A program made the position numbers and the translations under genes. A stretch of DNA of 64,000 nt. It comes from Desulfohalobiaceae bacterium S24. Its GTDB lineage: Bacteria; Desulfobacterota; Desulfovibrionia; Desulfovibrionales; Desulfothermaceae. Below, in pieces: positions 42,100 to 63,091 of the stretch (the first letter of the stretch is position 1; each line of letters begins with the position of its first letter). The notes below the pieces were generated by a model. That model searched no databases. It worked only from the letters and a program-made list of their open reading frames with translations, and was not told the origin of the DNA. The DNA lies in assembly GCA_011389765.1 (NCBI GenBank), contig JAABTT010000005.1, positions 1-64,000 of the forward strand, in the 5' to 3' direction.

Positions 42100-43572
42100 A
42101 TGGGCAGCGAGCTCAAAAAAATTCATGCTGCTTCGGTTCGACTCCTGGAAGAGATCGGGATTAAGCTTCACCATCCTGAGGTCTTGGAGCGCATCGCCGG
42201 GTTCGGGATCAAAGTCGAAGGGCAGACCGCCTATTTTACGGAAAAACAGCTCAGGCACTGGGTGAATCTGGCGCCTGGCCGTTTCACCCTCTCGGCTCTT
42301 AATCCTGAACATGACATGTTTGTCGGCGGGGACAGCATTGAATATGCCGCGGGATACGGAGCTCCGACCATAGTGGATCCCGAAGGCAACCGCCGGGCCG
42401 CCTTGATGGAAGACTATATCCAGTTTCTCAAGCTGGTCAATCAAAGCCCTTATTTTCATCTGAACGGCGGCATACTGGTCCAGCCCATGGATCTTCTGGA
42501 TCTCCCCTGCTTTCCAACCATGCTCTATGCCTCAATCCTGTATTCAGACAAGTGCCTCATGGGTTTTCAAAGCAATCGCAGGACCATGGAACAGCTTATG
42601 GACATGGTGGCCATTTGCTTCGGCGGCAAGGACAAACTTCTGGAACAGCCCCGGCTGATCTCCATGATCAGCACTATGAGCCCCCTGCAGGTGGATTCCG
42701 AGGCCCTGGACACCCTCCTGGTCTGTGCCGGCTGCCGGCAGCCGGTGATCATCTCGCCGGGACCGGCCGCCGGGAGCACCGGTCCGGTTACCATGGCCGG
42801 CAATGTCTCCCTGGCCAATGCCGAGGCCCTGGCGGTCATCGCCATATCCCAGATGATCCAGCCTGGGACCCCTGTGGTCTATGGTCTGCAGTCCACGTCG
42901 GCCGATCTGAGAAGCGGGGGCATTTCCATCGGGTCTCCGGCCTATTCCATCCAGGCTGCCTATTGCGCCCGACTGGCCAGGATGTACGGCATCCCCAGCC
43001 GAACCGGGGGCACGAACAACGACGCCAAGGGCGTGTCCGTGCAAAGCGGGTATGAAAGCATGTTCTCCATGCTCAACGCCTGCCTGCACAACGTCAACCT
43101 TATTGTGCAAAGCGCGGGTATGCTGGACTCCTACGCAGCCACGTCCTATGAGCAGTTTATGGTTGATCTGGAGATCATCAGCATGATTGAATTCTATCTC
43201 CAGGGCCTGGAGACGGACCAGGACTCCTTTGCCTTTGATGTGATCAAAAGTGTGGGCTCCGGGGGGGAATTTCTCAGCTCGGAGCACACCCTGCTGCATT
43301 TCCGGACCGATACCTGGAATCCCCTGATCGGCCTGCGCGGCAACATCAAGGGCATGACCCCCAATGAAAAATTCCTGTTCAATATCAATAAGGCCATGAA
43401 CGGCATGCTGGAATCCTATGAGAAACCGCCCTATGACCCGGCGATGATCGCATCCCTGGAGAACTATCTCATTCAGGACGTAGGGCTGGATCAGGAAGTT
43501 CTGACCTCGATCCGGGGGGACAGGCCATCCCGAAATATCGATGACGGCGAGAATTCGCCGAGGGCGGCCTGA
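42100..43572 (+). CDS. MttB-superfamily methyltransferase without pyrrolysine (copy 1)
   Basis: The 490-residue protein is full length for the trimethylamine methyltransferase superfamily but has no in-frame amber. The segment matching the Pyl site reads GGTNNDAKG, with Asn where pyrrolysine would be. Characterised non-Pyl relatives demethylate quaternary amines such as glycine betaine (MtgB), proline betaine or carnitine and pass the methyl to a cognate corrinoid protein. The substrate here is not predictable. No corrinoid protein gene is adjacent, unlike most such operons. AAGGGAAGGG precedes the ATG. Upstream is kbl; downstream is the MITE-like element and a racemase-like gene. Confidence 0.85.
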   Translation: MGSELKKIHAASVRLLEEIGIKLHHPEVLERIAGFGIKVEGQTAYFTEKQLRHWVNLAPGRFTLSALNPEHDMFVGGDSIEYAAGYGAPTIVDPEGNRRAALMEDYIQFLKLVNQSPYFHLNGGILVQPMDLLDLPCFPTMLYASILYSDKCLMGFQSNRRTMEQLMDMVAICFGGKDKLLEQPRLISMISTMSPLQVDSEALDTLLVCAGCRQPVIISPGPAAGSTGPVTMAGNVSLANAEALAVIAISQMIQPGTPVVYGLQSTSADLRSGGISIGSPAYSIQAAYCARLARMYGIPSRTGGTNNDAKGVSVQSGYESMFSMLNACLHNVNLIVQSAGMLDSYAATSYEQFMVDLEIISMIEFYLQGLETDQDSFAFDVIKSVGSGGEFLSSEHTLLHFRTDTWNPLIGLRGNIKGMTPNEKFLFNINKAMNGMLESYEKPPYDPAMIASLENYLIQDVGLDQEVLTSIRGDRPSRNIDDGENSPRAA

Positions 43573-44963: not shown

Positions 44964-45000
44964 AAAAAAAACCCGGTCTCTGCGGACCGGGTTTTTTTTT
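44964..45000. terminator. Bidirectional Rho-independent terminator
   Basis: AAAAAAAACCCGGTC pairs with GACCGGGTTTTTTTT around a 6-base loop. It serves the plus-strand genes to its left and the minus-strand MttB operon, whose stop overlaps its edge. Confidence 0.92.
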
Positions 45001-46426
45001 ATTCCAGCTTTCGACTCATATAAGCCTTCAGTTCCTCGTCCAGGGCGGGATCGATCATGGTCTCCGGACAGGCCTGCAGCAGCTGCTTGTACTTTTTATT
45101 GGCCATGCCCACGAGGTCTTCAGATCCGATTCCCTTGAGCATGTTTTTGTGCCGTCCTCTGGAGGAGACCGAGGGACGCCAGTAGTTCCGGCAGTAGCGG
45201 AAGGTGCTTTCATGGGTCAGAAAACTGCTGCTTCCGGAGGTGACTTCCCTGATGATATCCAGAGACAGGGATTCCTGGGTTACTTCCAGGCCGTCGGTGA
45301 TGCGGTGAAAGCGTTTAAACAGCTCTTCATCGATCATGAATTTTTCATAGGAGGTAACCATCAAGGCGTCCAGGGTGCCCAGACAGTTGCTCAGGATATT
45401 CGCGCCGGTAAGCATGCCCATCATCAGGTTCTGCTCGGTTTCATACCCGGCCTGGCAGTCGATCTCATCGGAATCGGTCATGCCGCACATGATGCGGGTG
45501 GGAACTTTGTACAGGTCGTTGGCCAGTTGCAGGTTTGCGGAATTGATCAAAAAGGGTTCCGGGGATCCGGTAATGTACTGGCCTTGATTCAGGTCTCCGA
45601 CAGTGGATGACGGGGAGTAGACCACGGGATTTTCCGGATTGATGAGCTGAATGAGGGTGGTCCCGGCAATGATCTCCGCGTTTTGCTGGACCACAGTGCC
45701 CACCAGATTGACCGGTCCGGAAATCCCGGCCAGGATGCAGGGCAGGATAAAAACCGGCTGCTTGTGCCTGGCGTAGACCATCATGGTTTCAATGGCGTCG
45801 GGCCCATAGGCCATGGGACTCAAGGGATTGACGCTCACTCCGACCACATGGCTGTTCTGGAGAACATTGCTGCGGCCGAAAGCGATGTCCACCATCTCCA
45901 GGACCTGAGCGGCCTGACGTCCGTCGAGACAGTAGCTGAGGAGCGGCTTGTCCGTGTGTTTGATGGTTTCATACATCAATCTTAGATGCATGTCCTGCAG
46001 GTCGATGTCCTGGGGCACCACAGGCAGGCCTCCGACAATATTGGCCACATCGCTGGCCTGACACATCTTTTGCAGGTTGATGTAATCCTGCAATCCTGCC
46101 GGCCGCCGGCCGTTATCCTGACATTGAATGTCTGTGGGGCCGGTGTTGGGCTGGACGGCAAAGCCTTTGCCGATGAGCAGATCGTGGTCAGGGTTTCTGG
46201 CTTGAAACCGGAATCTTGATGGGCAGCGCATCATGGCGTTTTCAGCCATCTTCTGGGGAATATACACGGTCTGCCCGTCCACTTTGGCCCCGCGCTCCCG
46301 GAAAACAGTCAGGGCTTCTTCCGACTTGAAGGCAATTCCGCAGGTTTCCAGGAGTTCGATGGAGGCGTCGTGGATGGTGTTGATCTCATCCTTGGAAAGG
46401 GGATCGATTTTACTCTTTAAGGCCAT
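44999..46426 (-). CDS. MttB-superfamily methyltransferase without pyrrolysine (copy 2)
   Basis: The 475-residue homologue of MttB has no amber codon; the Pyl-equivalent segment is CGMTDSDEIDCQAG, with Met at the Pyl site and Asp in place of the following conserved Lys. It should transfer a methyl group from an unknown methylated amine to a corrinoid protein not encoded here. It is the last gene of the minus-strand ADH-to-MttB operon, 33 bases after the ubiquitin-like carrier gene, and ends in the bidirectional terminator. The divergence at the Pyl region from both other MttB proteins suggests a third substrate. Confidence 0.85.
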   Translation of the reverse strand: MALKSKIDPLSKDEINTIHDASIELLETCGIAFKSEEALTVFRERGAKVDGQTVYIPQKMAENAMMRCPSRFRFQARNPDHDLLIGKGFAVQPNTGPTDIQCQDNGRRPAGLQDYINLQKMCQASDVANIVGGLPVVPQDIDLQDMHLRLMYETIKHTDKPLLSYCLDGRQAAQVLEMVDIAFGRSNVLQNSHVVGVSVNPLSPMAYGPDAIETMMVYARHKQPVFILPCILAGISGPVNLVGTVVQQNAEIIAGTTLIQLINPENPVVYSPSSTVGDLNQGQYITGSPEPFLINSANLQLANDLYKVPTRIMCGMTDSDEIDCQAGYETEQNLMMGMLTGANILSNCLGTLDALMVTSYEKFMIDEELFKRFHRITDGLEVTQESLSLDIIREVTSGSSSFLTHESTFRYCRNYWRPSVSSRGRHKNMLKGIGSEDLVGMANKKYKQLLQACPETMIDPALDEELKAYMSRKLE

Positions 46427-52514: not shown

Positions 52515-53939
52515 ATGCACATGGAACAGAACATGCTCCAGAAACAATTCGATTCCATTTTTCATTTTACCAACTACGGGATCTGGATCATGGATGGGCA
52601 GGGCGTGGTCTTGCGGGTGAATGAAGCCGCAGAGCAGCTCATCGATGTGAAATCAAAAAATATTATCGGTAAAAATATCAAAGAATTAGAGCGAAAAGGC
52701 ATCATTGACCAGGCCCTGACGCCGCAAATTCTGTCGAGCCGGAGTCCGGCGACCCGACTCATCCACCTTTTAAAAACCAAAAAGCAGATCCTTTCGACGG
52801 GAATTCCGGTTTTTGACGAGCAGGGACGGATCGCTCTCGTGGTAGTCAATGAATATGACATCACCACCCTGAATTCCCTTAAGGAGCAGCTTGAACAATT
52901 GCAGAATGTGGCCCAGAAATACCAGGACGAATTGTCCAATATTCATCTGGCGGATCTCAAAGAGCACGGCATCGTCTCCGAGAGCATGGAGATGCGCCAA
53001 CTGCTCAATGCCTCCCTGAAGCTGGCCCGCCTGGATGTTTCCAATATCCTCATCACCGGGGAATCCGGAACCGGAAAAGGACTGGTGGCCCAGTTCGTCC
53101 ATGACAGCGGCAAACGCAAGGAAAAGCCTTTTGTTCAAGTCAATTGTGCGGCTTTGCCGGAAAGTCTTTTGGAAGCCGAGTTATTCGGATATGAAAAAGG
53201 GGCCTTTACCGGCGCCACCAGAGGGAAAATCGGGTTTTTTGAAATGGCCCAGGACGGAACGATCCTCCTTGATGAAATCGGAGAACTCCCGTTTTCAGTT
53301 CAGGCCAAGCTCTTGAAGTGCCTTGAAGATCACCAGGTCATGCATATTGGCGGCATCAAGCCCATACCCATCAACTGTACGATTATTGCCGCGACCAACA
53401 GAGACCTTCACGCGAGGGTTGAAGACAAGGCCTTCAGGCCGGATCTTTATCACCGGCTGAACGCCTTCAGCGTCAAGGTTCCGTCGCTCCGGGAACGTCC
53501 CGAGGATATCATCGCCCTGGTCAACGCCTATCTCTATAAATACAATACCGAATACAGCATGAATAAACGCATATCCCTGCGCGGCATGAATCTGCTCCTG
53601 GATTACGAATTCCCCGGCAATGTTCGGGAACTCAAGAATATTCTTCGCCAGCTCGTGGTCATGACCGAAGAGGACCTCTTAGACGGTGCCATCAGGGAGA
53701 AGGTACAAAAACAGAGCACAAAGCAGACAGCAGTGTCCGGTGTTGGAGGCTCCGAGGGTATGAATCTGACAAAGCAGATTGAATCATTTGAGAGATCGAT
53801 TTTGATTCGATCCATGAAAAAGTGCAAAAGCACTCGGAAGATCGCGGCGCATCTTAAGATAAGCCAATCCATGGTGGCCAGGAAACTCAAAAAACACGGA
53901 CTTTCAACCCATTCGAATCCGACCGGAAAAGAAAGGTGA
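52515..53939 (+). CDS. Sigma-54-dependent activator with PAS domain, central to the amine cluster
   Basis: The 474-residue activator has one PAS domain (about 10-120), a short coiled coil, an AAA+ domain with GESGTGKG near 182, the sigma-54 loop GAFTGAT near 230 and Walker B LLDEIGE. A C-terminal Fis/TyrR-like helix-turn-helix (STRKIAAHLKISQSMVARKL) is near 435-455. It lacks a receiver, so the PAS domain probably senses a ligand. Its place between the two divergent catabolic transcription units, each with a -24/-12 element, makes it the likely activator of both. The second Met (52521) is an alternative start. Confidence 0.92.
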   Translation: MHMEQNMLQKQFDSIFHFTNYGIWIMDGQGVVLRVNEAAEQLIDVKSKNIIGKNIKELERKGIIDQALTPQILSSRSPATRLIHLLKTKKQILSTGIPVFDEQGRIALVVVNEYDITTLNSLKEQLEQLQNVAQKYQDELSNIHLADLKEHGIVSESMEMRQLLNASLKLARLDVSNILITGESGTGKGLVAQFVHDSGKRKEKPFVQVNCAALPESLLEAELFGYEKGAFTGATRGKIGFFEMAQDGTILLDEIGELPFSVQAKLLKCLEDHQVMHIGGIKPIPINCTIIAATNRDLHARVEDKAFRPDLYHRLNAFSVKVPSLRERPEDIIALVNAYLYKYNTEYSMNKRISLRGMNLLLDYEFPGNVRELKNILRQLVVMTEEDLLDGAIREKVQKQSTKQTAVSGVGGSEGMNLTKQIESFERSILIRSMKKCKSTRKIAAHLKISQSMVARKLKKHGLSTHSNPTGKER

Positions 53940-54288: not shown

Positions 54289-56751
54289 ATGGCGAAGGAA
54301 ATTCCCACGCACGCTCAGGTTGTCATTATCGGCGGAGGCATTGTCGGCTGCAGCGTGGCCTATCATTTGGCCAAGCTGGGCTGGAAGGACGTCCTGCTTT
54401 TGGAGCGCAAGACCATTGCTTCGGGATCGACTTGGGCCGCGGCCGGACTGCTGGGGCAGTTATGGGCCAACGCTCCGCTGACCAAACTGGCTGTTTACGG
54501 GGCCGATTTGTATTCCCGCCTGGAGGAGGAAACCGGGCAGCCCACGGGATACCAGCGTCCGGGATCGATTCGGGTGGCCCAGACCGCGGCCCGCAAGGAG
54601 GAATTCGATCGTTCCATGCAGATGGCCAGGGCCTTTGGGGTGGAAATGGAAGAGATCAGTCTTTCCGAGGCCAAGCGGCTTTTCCCTTTATTGCACATCG
54701 AGGATTTGACGACGGCTTATCTCCAGCCCAACGACGGACACACTAATCCGGAGGACACCACCCAGGCTCTGGCCAGAGGGGCCCGGTCCGGGGGTGTTAC
54801 AATTCTGGAAAATGTGAAAGTGACCGGAATTCAGCTGGCCCACGCCAGTTCGAACCTGATCAACAGGGTCCGGAGCGTCCGGACCGATCTTGGCGACGTG
54901 AAATGCGAGTATCTGGTAAACTGCAGCGGGATGTGGTCCCGGGAACTGGGGAAAATGCTCGACGTCAGCTTTCCCTTGTTCGCGGCGGAACATATGCATA
55001 TGACCACCAATCCTCTGGAGGGGACCTACAAAGGCATGCCCTATATCCGGGATATGGACGGCTATATTTATATCAAGGAAGAGATGGGCGGATTGTTGAT
55101 GGGCGGTTTCGAACCGGTGGCCAAACCCTGGGGCATGGAGGGAATCCCTGAGAATTTCGCCCACACCCAGCTCCAGGAGGACTGGGACCAGTTTGAAGTT
55201 TTTATGAACAGCGCCATCCAACGGGTTCCGGCATTCAAGGAGGCCGAGATCAACAGCCTGACCACGGTGCCGGAGAGTTTTACGCCGGACACCGCCTATA
55301 TGCTCGGCGAGGTTCCGGGGATCAAAAACGTGTTTGTGGCCACGGGCATGAACTCCGTGGGCATTACCAGCGCCGGCGGAGCCGGCCGGGCCCTGGCCCA
55401 ATGGATCGATCAGGGCTATCCTGAAGATGATTTATCAGCTGTTGATGTGCGCCGCTTTTTCCCCTGGCAGCAAAATCGCTATTACCTGCAGGACCGGGTG
55501 GTGGAGGCCGTGGGCAATCTCTACGCAGACCATTGGCCTTTCAAGCAGCCGGTCACTTCCAGAAATGTCCGCCAAACCCCCTTTCACGACCGGCTTGCGG
55601 ACCGGGGCGCCTGCTTCGGCGTGGTCGCCGGCTGGGAGCGGGCCAACTGGTTTGCTCCGGAAGGGGTTCCAGCGGAGTATGCCTACAACTGGGGTCGCCA
55701 GAACTGGTTTTCCTATTCCGCTGCAGAACATATGGCCGTCCGGGAGAATGTCGGAGTCTACGATCTGTCCTCCATGGCCAAGCTTCTGGTCCAGGGCCGG
55801 GATGCCTGCAGGATTCTGCAGCAGGTCTGCGGCAATGATGTGGATGTGGCCCGGGGCAAAGTGGTCTACACCCAGTTGCTCAATGCCAGGGGGGGCATCG
55901 AAGGCGATATTACCGTGACCAGACTGGCCGAGGATCAGTTCTTTGTGGTCAGCCCCGGGGCCTGCGCCACCCGGGATATGGACACGATCAAGCGGCAGAT
56001 CGGCCCGGACGATTTTGTGACTCTGAGCGACATGACCTCGGGCTACACTATGCTCGCGGTTATGGGCCCCCGGTCCAGAGAGCTCTTATCCACGCTGACG
56101 GATGCGGACCTGTCCAATGCAGGTTTTCCCTTTGCCACAGCCAGGGAGATCGACCTGGCCTATGCGCGGCCCCTGGCCGTTAGGATGTCCTTTGTGGGGG
56201 AGTTGGGCTGGGAATTATACATTCCCACTGAATTTTCCAATAATGTCTTTGACGCCTTGATGGAAAAAGGGGAATCGTTCAACTTGAAGCTGGTGGGCCT
56301 GCACGCCCTGGATTCACTGCGTCTGGAAAAAGGCTTCAAGCATTGGGGTGCGGATATCACTCCGGAGGACACGCCCCTGGAGGCCGGCCTGGGCTTTTGC
56401 GTCAAGTTTGACAAAGGTGATTTTCAAGGCAGGGAGGCTTTGCTGCAGCAGAAGAAAAACGGTCTGAGCCGCAAGCTGGTCATGTTTTCCATTGATGATC
56501 CTGAGCCCTTGATTTATCATGATGAACCTCTCTATCGCAACGGGGAACTGGTGGCTGAAAATACCCACGGGGCGTATGCCCATGCCTTCGGCCGTTCCAT
56601 CGGCATGTGTTATCTGCAAAAAGAAGGCGGCATCAGCGATGACTGGATCAGGCAGGGCGAGTATGCGATCAATGTGGCCGGAACACTGTATCCCGTCACC
56701 ATTCACCTGGAGCCGCTCTATGACCCCAAAAGCACCAGGGTCAGGATGTAG
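54289..56751 (+). CDS. Dimethylglycine/sarcosine dehydrogenase-like flavoprotein with GcvT domain
   Basis: The 820-residue protein joins an N-terminal FAD amine oxidoreductase domain (VVIIGGGIVGCSVAYHLAKLG at 11-31; to about 420) to a folate-binding GcvT/aminomethyltransferase domain (about 430-815, with MGPRSRELL and GELGWELY). Mammalian and bacterial homologues oxidatively demethylate dimethylglycine or sarcosine, passing the one-carbon unit to tetrahydrofolate. The covalent-FAD His of the mammalian enzymes (GTTWH/GSTWH motif) is Ala here (GSTWAAAG). GGAGGG precedes the ATG. The stop is TAG; read-through would add 16 residues to TAA. Confidence 0.88.
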   Translation: MAKEIPTHAQVVIIGGGIVGCSVAYHLAKLGWKDVLLLERKTIASGSTWAAAGLLGQLWANAPLTKLAVYGADLYSRLEEETGQPTGYQRPGSIRVAQTAARKEEFDRSMQMARAFGVEMEEISLSEAKRLFPLLHIEDLTTAYLQPNDGHTNPEDTTQALARGARSGGVTILENVKVTGIQLAHASSNLINRVRSVRTDLGDVKCEYLVNCSGMWSRELGKMLDVSFPLFAAEHMHMTTNPLEGTYKGMPYIRDMDGYIYIKEEMGGLLMGGFEPVAKPWGMEGIPENFAHTQLQEDWDQFEVFMNSAIQRVPAFKEAEINSLTTVPESFTPDTAYMLGEVPGIKNVFVATGMNSVGITSAGGAGRALAQWIDQGYPEDDLSAVDVRRFFPWQQNRYYLQDRVVEAVGNLYADHWPFKQPVTSRNVRQTPFHDRLADRGACFGVVAGWERANWFAPEGVPAEYAYNWGRQNWFSYSAAEHMAVRENVGVYDLSSMAKLLVQGRDACRILQQVCGNDVDVARGKVVYTQLLNARGGIEGDITVTRLAEDQFFVVSPGACATRDMDTIKRQIGPDDFVTLSDMTSGYTMLAVMGPRSRELLSTLTDADLSNAGFPFATAREIDLAYARPLAVRMSFVGELGWELYIPTEFSNNVFDALMEKGESFNLKLVGLHALDSLRLEKGFKHWGADITPEDTPLEAGLGFCVKFDKGDFQGREALLQQKKNGLSRKLVMFSIDDPEPLIYHDEPLYRNGELVAENTHGAYAHAFGRSIGMCYLQKEGGISDDWIRQGEYAINVAGTLYPVTIHLEPLYDPKSTRVRM

Positions 56752-57256
56752 ATCAGACTTCGTACCGACATTACGGCTTTGAACCTTAAGACTATAAAAT
56801 AATTAGCAATATTTGAAATCTTGTTAAAATTGGACATTCCTTTGGTTTCTGGTTTCAGGTGTCGGGTGTCTGGAAAGGCAAAATCCGCAAACTCCTATGA
56901 AACTTCATTTTTCTTTCTCCGTCACCCCGGCGTAGGCCGGGGTCCAGCTCTTACAATTTCGGTCTGGATTCCGGCTCCCGGATCGGGGTCCGGGACAGGC
57001 CCCGCCGGAATGACGGAGGAGTGACCCAAAGTTACTTCACTGATCAAACTGGCAGTCGTTGTTTTTAAATGAACAGCATAACAGATCAGTCGTATATTAT
57101 TTTAAATATCAAATAATTATATGTCAGGGCTGCCAGCGGCTGGCGCTGAAACCTGAAACCAGACACATGAAACCACAAAATGAGGCAAAAAATAACACAA
57201 GATGTCCAATAAATCCTTATGATTTACGCGTCCTGTAAAGAACTCTGTATTTCCTG
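56752..57256. repeat. Dispersed repeat R1, split by a MITE-like half copy
   Basis: Bases 56752-56876 and about 57150-57256 match, in inverted order, the continuous repeat at 61780-62035: shared ACTTCGTAC, TTAAAATTGGACATTC, GGTTTCTGG; then ACAAGATGTCCAA and ACGCGTCCTGTAAAGA. Between them lie a CCGTCACCCCGGCG-type palindrome (56918-57020) and a right arm of the MITE-like element (57023-57160). The 593-base gap up to the Pyl-MttB gene holds only repeats and the gene's ribosome site. Confidence 0.75.
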
Positions 57257-57297: not shown

Positions 57298-57344
57298 CTT
57301 GAAATTCCAAAAACCGTGAAGAGTGAACCTCAAAAGGAGGTCCC

Positions 57345-58811
57345 ATGAAACGATTCATGAAATCCGGCATTCAACGCAGTTCAGGGTTCAGCTTAAACGT
57401 CATGAGCGATGACGAAGCCCATGAAATCCATTTGGGCACCCTGGAGATCCTCAAGGATGTCGGGGTCTATGTCCAAAGTGAAAAAGCCCGGGAGATATTT
57501 GCTTCCGGGGGCTGCAAAGTGGATCAGGCACAGGAAGTCGTGAAAATACCGAATTGGGTGGTGGAAGAGGCCATTCGTTCCGCTCCGGCCAGTTTCCAGG
57601 CCTGCGGTCGGCGGCCGGAAGACGATGTCATGCTGGAAGACGGCCGGGTGAGTTTCACCAACTTCGGGGAAGGCATCATGTTCGTGGATCCCTACAGCGG
57701 TGAACACCGGGAGACCACCAAGGCCGATATTGAAAAGGCGGCCCTGGTCATCGACTCCTTGGACTGCATCGCAACCTATGAACGCTGCATGTGCTCTCAT
57801 GACAAGCCGGCCCCGGTTCAGGCCCTGCATAATGCCGAGGCCTCCTTGACCAATACCACCAAGCATCACTGGCTGGGGCCGGTGGATCGCTACCAGTCCG
57901 GCAAGATCATCGACATGTGTTCGGCCATCGTGGGAGGAAAAGAGAAGCTCCGGGAGCGGCCCATCCTGACCTTTGTGACCTGTCCCATCAGTCCCTTGAA
58001 GCTGCCGGAGGATCATTGTGACATCACCATGGCCGCCGCGGAAAACGGAATCGGGGTCAATGTCATTGCCATGGCCATGTCCGGGGGGTCAGGCCCCATC
58101 CATCTGGCCGGCACCCTGGTGGTGCAGAACAGTGAAGTCCTGGCCACCTTGGTCCTCAATCAGTTGACCGAGAAGGGCTCGCCCTTTGTCTACGCCAGTT
58201 CCACCTGCCCCATGGATTTGAAGCGAGCCACAGCCTCTGTGGGATCGCCGGAAACCGCCATGATCAGCGCTGCGGTGGCCCGCCTGGCCAAGTACTATTC
58301 GCTGCCCTGTTTTGTGGCCGGCGGCTAGGGGGACAGCAAAGTTGTGGATGCCCAGTCCGGCCATGAAAAAACCATCACCGGCCTATTGCCCGCTTTGGCA
58401 GGCGCCAATGTGGTCTACGGCTGCGGGATGCTGGAAATGGGCATTACCTTTGATCTGGCTCAGCTGGTTCTGGACAATGAAATCGCCTCCATGATTCTGC
58501 ACACCCTGCAGGGCGTGCCGGTCAGCGACGCTACCCTGGCCGTGGACATGATCAAGGAAATGGGCATCGGCAAGGATTATCTGGCCCATGAATCCACCTA
58601 CAATTTCATGCGCACCCAGTCCCAGGCCAAGCTCATTGACCGCCAGATGCGGGCCAACTGGGAAGCGGCCGGGGGGAAGGACATCTACGCCCGGGCCCAT
58701 GAAAAAATGCTGGACATCCTCAAGACGCATGAGCCGGTGCCCCTGCCGGATACGATCCGGGAGGAGGTACGTTCCATCGTGGAAGAAGCGGAGAAGGAGA
58801 CCGGAATTTGA
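57345..58811 (+). CDS. mttB: Trimethylamine methyltransferase MttB with in-frame amber (pyrrolysine) codon
   Basis: Reading the TAG at 58326-58328 as an amino acid gives one 488-residue protein, the usual MttB length. The amber is codon 328, close to residue 334 in the Methanosarcina enzyme. The frame continues unchanged from FVAGG before the amber into GDSKVVDAQSGHEKT after it. Pyrrolysine is the catalytic residue that activates trimethylamine for methyl transfer to a corrinoid protein. AAGGAGG precedes the ATG, and the real stop is TGA. A conventional gene caller would split it at 58328. Flanks are repeats; the dehydrogenase lies upstream and the betaine-binding protein downstream. No MttC or pyl gene is visible. 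Confidence 0.93.
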
Positions 58812-58935
58812 TGTCAGCTTTGCCTCTGGCAAATCTGACATATAAGCATTTGATATTTAAAACAATATACGACTGAGCTGTTATGCTGTTCATTTTAAAC
58901 AACGACTGCCAGTTTGATCAGTGAAGAAACTTTGA
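58811..58935. repeat. Left half copy of the MITE-like element
   Basis: It starts at the MttB stop with a GTCAGCTTTGCC..GGCAAATCTGAC hairpin and runs through ACGACTGAGC.GTTATGCTGTTCAT to ACTGCCAGTTTGATCAGTGA, the same order as 43600-43705. The hairpin may serve as mttB terminator. It opens the 481-base gap before the ProX-like gene. Confidence 0.75.
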
Positions 58936-58998: not shown

Positions 58999-59162
58999 TT
59001 TGAACGTCCAACATCGAACGTCGAACATCGAACTTTGAATGAAGAAAAAAGAAAAACGAATGAAATACCAATTACTTGAAGAAAAAGCTGATTCGGGGAT
59101 ATGAGCATATCTTTTCTTTGATTCACCATTGGACGTTCGACGTTCGATGTTCGATGTTCATT
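58999..59162. repeat. Heptamer-like repeats in inverted arrangement
   Basis: Short units of AACATCG/AACGTCG type (near 59003-59034) reappear inverted as TTCGACG/TTCGATG units (59128-59160), about 90 bases apart. Such tracts are common between genes in deltaproteobacteria. No spacer array exists. The rest of the gap up to 59292 shows nothing else recognisable. Confidence 0.6.
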
Positions 59163-59292: not shown

Positions 59293-60333
59293 ATGCGGTA
59301 CTGTTTTTTTCGTCGAATGTTTAGTCTGGCCGCGGTCCTCATGATTCTGAGCTTTACCACCAGCCTGAATGCAGGAGATCTTCCAGGTAAAGGGGTGACG
59401 GTTCGACCCGCACGTGCAACCTGGACCACGGGATTTTTCCTGGAGGCCCTCTACAGCCGGGCCTTGGAGGAACTGGGGTATCAGGTTCAAAAAGCAAAAG
59501 ATTTAGCGGTCCCCATTTTCTATCAATCCGTGTGTCAGGGTGATGTCGATTTTTGGGCCAATAGCTGGTTCCCCTTGCAGAATGTTCAACTTCCGAAAGA
59601 TTTCGATGAAAAAGCCGAAATCGCCGGCTATGTGATCAAGGCCGGGGCCTTGCAGGGCTATCTGGCCTCGAAAAAAGATGTGGAAAAGTTTGGCATCACC
59701 TCTCTTGCTGATTTTAAACGGCCTGAAGTCAAAAAGGCCTTTGACTCTGACGGGGACGGCAAGGCCGAACTCGTTGGATGCCCGCCGGGATGGGGGTGCG
59801 AGCTGGCCAACAACTTTCACATGGAGATCTACGGCCTGGAAGATGATATCCATCTCATCAAGGCAGGGTATTCTGCAGGCATGGCCGATGCATTAGCCCG
59901 CTACCAGGCGGGGAAGCCCATTCTTTTTTATACCTGGACCCCGAACTGGACGATCTACAAACTCAAACCGGGCAAGGATGTTCTGTGGATCAACGTCCCG
60001 GAAATTATTGCCAGGGAGTCTGAAAAGCAGTTCAAAGACAAGATGACCATGAGCGGTGTGGACGGCGCTGTGAGCGATCCCATTAAAATGGGCTATCCCG
60101 CCAATGATATCTGTGTTGTTGCCAACAAGACCTTTTTGAAGGAAAACCCAGCGGCGGAAAAGATCTTTGAGATCATGTCCGTGCCTCTTCAGGATGTTGC
60201 GGCGCAGAACGTGAAAATGAATCAAGGAGAGAACAAGCAAAAAGACATCGAACGTCATGTTGACGAGTGGATCGCTGCGAACCAGGATTTATGGGATTCC
60301 TGGCTTGAACAAGGCCGAAATGCTGCGCAGTGA
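59293..60333 (+). CDS. ProX-like glycine betaine/quaternary amine-binding protein
   Basis: The 346-residue protein has a Sec signal peptide cut near LNAGD (26/27). The mature part closely follows E. coli ProX. The aromatic cage tryptophans are present in NSWFP (near 96), CPPGWGCEL (near 162) and YTWTPNW (near 216), which trap a trimethylammonium group. It should deliver glycine betaine, proline betaine or a similar compound to an ABC permease. No OpuA/ProU-type permease or ATPase is beside it; the next genes encode dipeptide-type permeases. AGGAGG precedes the ATG. Confidence 0.92.
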   Translation: MRYCFFRRMFSLAAVLMILSFTTSLNAGDLPGKGVTVRPARATWTTGFFLEALYSRALEELGYQVQKAKDLAVPIFYQSVCQGDVDFWANSWFPLQNVQLPKDFDEKAEIAGYVIKAGALQGYLASKKDVEKFGITSLADFKRPEVKKAFDSDGDGKAELVGCPPGWGCELANNFHMEIYGLEDDIHLIKAGYSAGMADALARYQAGKPILFYTWTPNWTIYKLKPGKDVLWINVPEIIARESEKQFKDKMTMSGVDGAVSDPIKMGYPANDICVVANKTFLKENPAAEKIFEIMSVPLQDVAAQNVKMNQGENKQKDIERHVDEWIAANQDLWDSWLEQGRNAAQ

Positions 60334-60425: not shown

Positions 60426-61724
60426 ATGGCAAAATTCATCATACGTCGGTTTTTCCTCATGATCTTGACCATGCTTTTGGTCTCTATGGCGGTTTTTCTC
60501 ATTACCGAAGCCTCACCCGGAAATGTGGCCCGGAATGTCCTGGGGGGATTCATCACTCCGGAACAGGAAAAGTCGTTCCTCAATCAAATGGGTCTGGATG
60601 AGCCGATTCTGGTCCGCTATCTGTACTGGCTGGTGGGCAGCGACTGGCGGGCGGAGCGCAAGATCGGCCTGGACTTGGAACGGGTGACCTCAAAGGAGGG
60701 GTTTCAGGAATGGTGGGCGGTCAAGGAAGACGGCAGTCTGGTGCGCTGGAAAATGCAGGGCGAGGACCTCATTGCCACGGAACGCGGCCCGCAGGGCAAA
60801 ATTTCCACCCACACAGACAATGAACGCTGGACGACCAATGAACAGGGGGAGTCTTTTTTTTGGGGGATCAATGATCAGAATCAGGCGGTGAAGTGGGAGA
60901 AAGGAAAAAAAAAGGAGGCCTGGCGCTTTGTCCAGGGGACCGGCTGGATGAAATCCAGCGGGGCCCCGACGGAATACATACCCATTAAAAAGGGCTTTGT
61001 CCGCGGAGATCCCGGAATTTCGCTGCGCACCGGCCGGCCGGTGAGCAAAAGCCTGGGGGTCCGTTTGCGCAATTCCCTGGTCCTGGCGGGCTCCGCTTTT
61101 GTGATCATCATGCCCATCGCCCTGTTCCTGGGCATTGTGGCCGGCTTGAAGGAAGGCTCCCTGCTTGATCGGGGCCTGTCCATCCCCGGGATGATGTTTT
61201 CGGTGATTCCGGAGTTCGTGACCGGTATCTTTCTTATTCTTATTCTGTCCCAATGGCTCGGCCTTGTGCCTGGCGCCACCGTCTTCGGGGAAAAGGCGCC
61301 CTGGACCCGCCCGGACATGTTGGTCCTCCCGGTATTGACTCTGGCCCTGATCGAACTGGGCTATATTCTGCGCATCACCCGGGCCAGCATGGCTGAAGTC
61401 ATGCAGCATTCCTTTGTAAGGACGGCCTTTTTAAAGGGACTGCCCTACTGGCAGGTGATTTTCAAGCACGCGGTGCGCAACGCCCTGATCGCCCCGATCA
61501 CGGTGATCATGCTGCACATCAACTGGATGATGAGCGGAATCGTCATCGTGGAGGTGGTCTTCGGCTATCCCGGTTTGGGCAAATACCTCCTGGATTCGGC
61601 CCTGTACAAGGATGTGGCCGCCCTGGAAGCCGGAGCGATGATCATGGTCCTGATCGCGGTGGGCACCCAGCTCATTGCGGATATCGTTTATACCTTCTTA
61701 AATCCGAGAATCAGGTACACTTGA
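60426..61724 (+). CDS. DppB-type ABC permease with a large periplasmic insertion
   Basis: The 432-residue protein has the DppB pattern: first helix FLMILTMLLVSMAVFLI, LNQMGLDEPILVRYLYWL, and the C-terminal core with RITRASMAEVMQHSFVRTA (EAA-type loop) and five helices. DppB is usually 305-340 residues; the extra ~105 residues (about 80-188) lie between helices 1 and 2, where the family has a short GDLG loop, seen here only at GDPGISLRTGRPVS. The insertion is Trp-rich (EWWAVKEDG, NERWTTNEQG, WRFVQGTGW) and faces the periplasm. It lies 92 bases behind the ProX-like gene. Ribosome site weak. Confidence 0.88.
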   Translation: MAKFIIRRFFLMILTMLLVSMAVFLITEASPGNVARNVLGGFITPEQEKSFLNQMGLDEPILVRYLYWLVGSDWRAERKIGLDLERVTSKEGFQEWWAVKEDGSLVRWKMQGEDLIATERGPQGKISTHTDNERWTTNEQGESFFWGINDQNQAVKWEKGKKKEAWRFVQGTGWMKSSGAPTEYIPIKKGFVRGDPGISLRTGRPVSKSLGVRLRNSLVLAGSAFVIIMPIALFLGIVAGLKEGSLLDRGLSIPGMMFSVIPEFVTGIFLILILSQWLGLVPGATVFGEKAPWTRPDMLVLPVLTLALIELGYILRITRASMAEVMQHSFVRTAFLKGLPYWQVIFKHAVRNALIAPITVIMLHINWMMSGIVIVEVVFGYPGLGKYLLDSALYKDVAALEAGAMIMVLIAVGTQLIADIVYTFLNPRIRYT

Positions 61725-62125: not shown

Positions 62126-63091
62126 ATGACGGAACAGCAGACAGCGGAAGAAATGAGACCGGAGACCATTCCGGATCAGGGTGAGGGTTCGGTGCTGGAG
62201 TCCCAGAAGGGTTTCTGGAGGAAGATCAAAAGCGCGGTTCAGATCATTTTGACCTCCAAGACGGCTACCGTGGGATTCCTTCTGGTCTTTTTCTGGGTGG
62301 GGGTGGCGGTCCTGGCGCCGGCCCTGACGCCTTACACCCCGACAGAGCAGGACTGGATGCATCCCAATGAAGGGCCGTCGGCCAAGCATATCCTGGGCAC
62401 GGATGAACTGGGCCGGGACCTCTGGACCCGGATTATTTACGGGGCCAGGGTGGTGCTGGTCTACCTGCCGGTGTCCGAGCACGTGACTATTCCCGGAGGA
62501 ACCGCGATCTGGTCGGTCTTTGTGGCCCTGGTGGTCGGCTCCATCCTCGGACTGATCAGCGGATATATCGGCGGCTGGCCGGACGAGATCATCATGCGGC
62601 TTTTGGACGCCATGATTTCCATCCCGGTGCTGCTCTTGTATCTCTTGATCGTGGCCGCCCTGGGAGCTTCGGCCGTGAACGTGGTTATCGCCCTGGCCAT
62701 CATGGGTATTCCTGGGATTGCCAGGCTGGTGCGCAGCCTGACCCTGGACATCCGCACCCGGGATTATATCAAGGCCGCGGAGACCCGGGGGGAGAGCAAG
62801 CTGCATATCATGTTCGTGGAGATCATGCCCAACGCCAAAGGACCGGTGATCATCGACGCCATGCTCCGGGTGGGCTACGCGATTTTCGCCATGGGCACCC
62901 TGGGTTTTCTGGGCATGGGCATCCCGCCGCCATCGCCGGACTGGGGGAGCATGGTGGCCAAAGGCCGGGAATTCATCCTGCAGGGACATCCCTGGGCTTC
63001 ACTCTGGCCGGCCCTTGCCATCGCCACCCTGGTGGTGGGTTTGAACCTCATGGCCGACGGTCTGCGCGAGGAGATGACCCGCTACCAATAA
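62126..63091 (+). CDS. DppC-type ABC permease
   Basis: The 321-residue inner-membrane protein matches DppC/OppC: N-terminal helix after a charged leader, the HILGTDELGRDLWTRIIYGAR signature near 85-107, and the EAA loop AAETRGESKLHIMFVEIMPN near 215. About 15 extra residues (PVSEHVTIPGGTAI) sit just after the signature, before the next helix. It should form the channel with the DppB-type protein. AAAAGGAAG precedes the ATG. Repeat R2 separates it from the dppB-type gene; dppD follows after 102 bases. Confidence 0.9.
   Translation: MTEQQTAEEMRPETIPDQGEGSVLESQKGFWRKIKSAVQIILTSKTATVGFLLVFFWVGVAVLAPALTPYTPTEQDWMHPNEGPSAKHILGTDELGRDLWTRIIYGARVVLVYLPVSEHVTIPGGTAIWSVFVALVVGSILGLISGYIGGWPDEIIMRLLDAMISIPVLLLYLLIVAALGASAVNVVIALAIMGIPGIARLVRSLTLDIRTRDYIKAAETRGESKLHIMFVEIMPNAKGPVIIDAMLRVGYAIFAMGTLGFLGMGIPPPSPDWGSMVAKGREFILQGHPWASLWPALAIATLVVGLNLMADGLREEMTRYQ

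Follow-up and report, generated by a model that had tools for sequence, protein, structure and literature searches.

Evidence for a pyrrolysine-containing trimethylamine methyltransferase, and for pyrrolysine decoding, in a genus of the Desulfohalobiaceae

The trimethylamine:corrinoid methyltransferase MttB of Methanosarcina barkeri has been solved in three structures (7xcm, 7xcl and 7xcn), in which chain residue 334 is pyrrolysine (Pyl334; PMC9842639). Pyrrolysine use has also been described in bacteria: the marine Deltaproteobacteria-bbl, assigned to the Desulfobacterales, carries a Pyl-MttB gene with its amber at codon 327 of 485 (PMC8318568), and Bilophila wadsworthia is a Pyl-using deltaproteobacterium with a Pyl-MttB and a non-Pyl homologue of MtmB and without mtbB (PMC7593587). 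The bacterial pyrrolysine genes form a cassette with a split synthetase, pylTScBCDSn (PMC3941956).

We analysed a 64,000-nucleotide stretch (the window) of Desulfohalobiaceae bacterium S24, whose genome is a 3.5-Mb draft in 137 contigs, 94% complete. The mttB gene of this window resembles that of M. barkeri in a continuous alignment and in the active-site context of its amber codon; unlike it, the gene is bacterial, lies beside genes for a dimethylglycine-dehydrogenase-like protein and a betaine-binding protein, and adjoins no corrinoid gene. As in Deltaproteobacteria-bbl, the lineage is one of sulfate reducers, the amber occupies almost the same place (codon 328 of 488), and the gene is accompanied in the genome by tRNA-Pyl, pyl genes and many non-Pyl MttB paralogues; in contrast to that organism, the present one belongs to the Desulfohalobiaceae and has six Pyl-MttB genes together with Pyl-MtbB. 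It shares with Bilophila a Pyl-MttB and a non-Pyl MtmB homologue, and differs from it in that this genus has several TAG-bearing mtbB genes. The split synthetase, pylT, pylB, pylC and pylD of the bacterial cassette recur in a sister genome, interspersed with other genes, whereas the pyl genes of the source genome are spread over at least two contigs, near alanine dehydrogenase, corrinoid and MttB genes.

The mttB frame (Table 1) opens with an ATG at 57345 behind the Shine-Dalgarno sequence AAGGAGG. The preliminary description of this DNA had pointed out an in-frame TAG at codon 328, between FVAGG and GDSK, followed by 160 further open codons; both are readily seen in the sequence, the frame closing with a TGA at 58809-58811. 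It had also held that the length and context of the protein are right only if the amber is read through, which agrees with our searches: the 488-residue read-through product scored 697.6 bits against TIGR02369, the model of pyrrolysine-type trimethylamine methyltransferases (cut-off 525 bits), over model positions 1-469 of 469, and 300 bits against PF06253. Among solved structures it matched MttB best (chains 7xcm and 7xcl, E about 1e-120), in an alignment that covers residues 7-484, almost the full length, and places the TAG-encoded residue opposite residue 334 of the chain. The gene thus combines a full-length match above the curated cut-off with an amber at the Pyl334 position.

Table 1. 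Features of the mttB region (window coordinates) and mtbB genes of the three genomes.
Feature	Position	Strand	Basis or remark
PAS and sigma-54 activator regulator	52515..53939	+	Pfam; link to mttB putative
FAD oxidoreductase fused to GcvT-type domain, dimethylglycine/sarcosine dehydrogenase-like	54289..56751	+	Pfam
Left copy of dispersed intergenic repeat, in inverse orientation to right copy	57027..57140	+	
Shine-Dalgarno sequence ahead of mttB start	57334..57340	+	direct sequence reading
mttB, trimethylamine:corrinoid methyltransferase, 488 aa with amber as pyrrolysine	57345..58811	+	translation, TIGR02369, PF06253, structure alignment
Amber codon 328 (TAG, in frame), decoded as pyrrolysine	58326..58328	+	column common to paralogues and sister copies; on Pyl334
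Right copy of dispersed intergenic repeat, 90% identity with left copy over 114 nt	58822..58934	-	
ProX-like glycine betaine binding protein	59293..60333	+	NF008334, 427.6 bits vs 215
ABC transporter permease	60426..61724	+	PF00528
ABC transporter permease	62126..63091	+	PF00528
mtbB genes with TAG, source genome	L096, L099, L102, G000:C69:1-417		
mtbB genes with one in-frame TAG, sister genomes	L095, L097, L098, L101		

No corrinoid gene adjoining mttB was found among the ORFs scanned; a B12-binding corrinoid protein gene is present in the stretch of contig C97 that carries the paralogue L014, 88% identical to the window mttB. The neighbours of mttB, together with this L014 stretch, suggest a role in the degradation of betaine, dimethylglycine and methylamine, and membership of the family makes trimethylamine the most likely substrate. 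The dispersed repeat that flanks the gene, about 115-125 nt long, has more copies in the source genome and diverged copies in the sister genomes, and another inverted repeat with GAACGTCGAACATCGAAC-like units lies 3' of mttB at 59001-59160.

We consider it very nearly certain that mttB encodes a pyrrolysine-containing MttB, in which the product of PylB, PylC and PylD is inserted at UAG 328 by tRNA-Pyl(CUA) and PylSc/PylSn. PylB, PylC and PylD would make pyrrolysine, PylSc (with PylSn) would charge the dedicated amber tRNA with it, and this tRNA would deliver it to codon 328, an insertion that we infer from the sequence; the pyrrolysine of MttB would then activate trimethylamine, and the methyl group would pass to a corrinoid protein. 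Against this reading stand the lack of pylC, pylD and pylSn in the draft, the use of TAG as an ordinary stop in about 16% of long ORFs, and the lack of a stimulatory RNA structure.

The preliminary description had proposed a search of the genome for pylT, pylS and pylBCD, and this search succeeded in part. We found pylSc on contig C23 (TIGR02367, 323 bits against a cut-off of 178), and on contig C75 the methylornithine synthase gene pylB (TIGR03910, 474 bits against 348) and the tRNA-Pyl gene pylT (C75 29024-29098, L029:15025-15099), so that a genome devoid of pyl genes, named in advance as evidence against pyrrolysine, is not what we have here. The tRNA has a CUA anticodon, a 6-bp anticodon stem, a single base between the acceptor and D stems and a three-base variable loop, all of them described features of tRNA-Pyl (PMC3941956), of which the long anticodon stem and the single acceptor/D-stem base are diagnostic; outside the D-loop region it is identical to the tRNA of the sister genomes. 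In contrast, pylC, pylD and pylSn were not found in the 94%-complete draft, yet all three occur near pylT in a sister genome (G001), where pylB, pylSc, alanine dehydrogenase, pylT, a corrinoid gene of the pyl type, a gene judged thioesterase-like by eye, pylC, pylD and pylSn share a single 7.9-kb contig, the last three all above their cut-offs (429, 204 and 123 bits, respectively; cut-off 51 for pylSn). Contig C75 of the source genome ends within the corrinoid gene directly after pylT, which in G001 precedes pylC. The contig breaks where G001 carries the missing genes. An assembly gap would most simply account for the absence of pylC, pylD and pylSn, and we infer that they belong to the unassembled part of the source genome; they may also have been truly lost. 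In the second sister genome, G002, about 0.9 kb of the contig remains past the corrinoid gene that adjoins pylT. Both pyl contigs of the draft (L028 on C23 and L029 on C75) end within corrinoid-protein genes, and repeated genes of this kind may break the assembly there.

The lack of pylC and pylD in the assembly would also fit a strain in which pyrrolysine synthesis is incomplete and the TAG is read as an ordinary amino acid, by near-cognate suppression or a mischarged tRNA. We regard this as very improbable: the assembly breaks exactly where the sister genome has pylC, pylD and pylSn, pylB and pylSc are intact, and the TAG is retained in all Pyl-type copies but one, although an ordinary residue would not need it.

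That the TAG is a true stop, and mttB a pseudogene created by a nonsense mutation or a product of sequencing error, would accord with the standard code and with the mechanical ORF list, which splits mttB at this codon. The presence of tRNA-Pyl, PylSc and PylB genes speaks against it, as does the distribution of the codon. The MttB family of this genome comprises 22 genes, a large expansion, and six of them carry one TAG each, all in an identical alignment column; the remaining genes have a sense codon there, and none of the 22 has any other internal stop. Since all six TAGs share a single column in genes otherwise free of internal stops, the TAG of mttB is not due to chance. TAA stops in two MttB matches (L002 and L017) were considered as internal stops and rejected, both lying at the 5' edge of the match. 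Two further MttB-family genes of the window, at 42100-43572 (+) and 44999-46426 (-), have no TAG and score 254 and 293 bits (Pyl-MttB cut-off 525).

In a TIGR02369 search of relatives (n=15), exactly one TAG was present in each of the eight homologues above the cut-off, all of which lay in two genomes of the same genus, and in none of the 27 weaker matches. The amber column is identical in 14 MttB genes from three genomes, and the TAG has never been exchanged for TAA or TGA despite synonymous-site differences of 23-65% between orthologues. Moreover, pairs of TAG-bearing MttB genes show a dN much lower than dS both 5' and 3' of the codon, with comparable dN in the two parts (L011/L014: dN 0.071 and dS 1.18 before, 0.086 and 0.73 after; L013/L064: 0.037 and 0.73 before, 0.072 and 1.24 after). 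Selection on both sides and the absence of exchange for other stops are as expected of a translated sense codon, and purifying selection downstream of the TAG that equals that upstream leaves a true stop with hardly any probability. A close relative with a sense codon at this position and disrupted downstream sequence, which the preliminary description had named as counter-evidence, was not found. Finally, a 155-residue ORF from the GTG at 58344, 16 bases past the TAG, would allow a stop, a restart and a split enzyme of two polypeptides, a possibility that we effectively discount, given that the residue at the GTG is not kept as a possible start in the paralogues (V, V, C, S, P and others), that the intervening [GV]D[SA]K shows conservation at the protein level, and that the catalytic residue would be absent.

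The pyrrolysine reading has to accommodate TAG as a normal stop. In a 0.58-Mb sample, 59 of 372 ORFs of at least 200 aa ended in TAG (15.9%; a mechanical count that takes in a few truncated Pyl genes), and the dehydrogenase directly 5' of mttB itself ends in TAG, read-through of which would lengthen it by only about 17 residues. The corresponding share in a Pyl-less member of the family was 29.5%; we do not claim from this difference that TAG is avoided as a stop, because G+C and trinucleotide content differ between the organisms and the ORF count is mechanical. No stimulatory structure was found in the 100 nt 3' of the mttB TAG, which folded into less structure than their shuffles (z = +1.44), and a downstream RNA insertion element was accordingly rejected. 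Given that TAG is a normal stop and that no structure follows the mttB TAG, tRNA-Pyl and release factor probably compete for the amber codon. Inspection by eye of long TAG read-throughs in the same sample yielded no further Pyl genes besides mttB and mtbB; the longest (L030) was rejected, as it only fuses two distinct genes, for a GGDEF protein and a sugar transferase.

The preliminary description recognised one Pyl-type mttB, and rightly so; it did not see the six Pyl-MttB genes of the genome, the Pyl-type MtbB genes, or a copy of the Pyl clade with a sense codon. The dimethylamine methyltransferase gene mtbB is present in the source genome as three genes and one partial copy, with one TAG each, and the amber context is conserved in the genes read (LO[V/I]G[V/T]GDP). 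On contig C80 an mttB is followed by two mtbB in tandem, with a TAG in all three. One mtbB of a sister genome (L095; G001 C120:492-1853, minus strand) carries TAG in two roles, at the Pyl site, where it is the presumed pyrrolysine codon, and as terminator at the usual length, with an additional TAG seven codons further on. The MtmB homologue (L094; G000 C76:4515-5870, minus strand) has no TAG, and an asparagine aligns with Pyl202 of M. barkeri MtmB; for an archaeal non-Pyl MtmB homologue, activity on tetramethylammonium and choline has recently been demonstrated (PMC13044021).

The sense-codon copy is the MttB gene adjoining pylB (L009; C75:25797-27278, minus strand; L029:11798-13279), which has CAC (His) at the Pyl site. 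Its product scores 573 bits against the Pyl-MttB model (cut-off 525) and, in a tree of 35 proteins from which the Pyl-site column had been removed, falls inside the Pyl clade, which has an ultrafast bootstrap support of 99, with 96 at the nested node. This score and nested position point to amber loss inside the Pyl lineage. We give an even chance to the possibility that pyrrolysine was here exchanged for histidine in a Pyl-decoding organism, probably with a change of substrate or chemistry.

The statement of the preliminary description that the organism decodes pyrrolysine finds support in the tRNA-Pyl, PylSc and PylB genes of the genome and in the full set of the sister. The two sister genomes are MAGs of the same genus from 'Tobar' samples; a contig search with a single PylS gave no match, and one with a three-sequence alignment recovered both. 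Of the 41 genomes searched, the three with PylSc above the cut-off are those of this genus; the 38 others, from the same family and order, gave no such match. A full-text search of one collection of papers found nothing linking Desulfohalobiaceae with pyrrolysine, the two words co-occurring in a single paper, in unrelated places. The phenomenon itself is known, since the Pyl-MttB of Bilophila and of a marine sulfate reducer had been described; what distinguishes this genus is an unusually heavy use of pyrrolysine, with about ten genes in two enzyme families.

Standard gene calling breaks genes of this kind in two at the TAG, and the enzymes are consequently missed or labelled as fragments. With pyrrolysine decoding placed in a genus of the Desulfohalobiaceae, the use of trimethylamine, and probably of dimethylamine, becomes assignable to these bacteria and would make them rivals of methanogens for methylamines. 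A genus with many Pyl genes, ordinary TAG stops, a gene with TAG in both roles and an apparent reversion to a sense codon also offers material on how an ambiguous amber codon is tolerated or lost.
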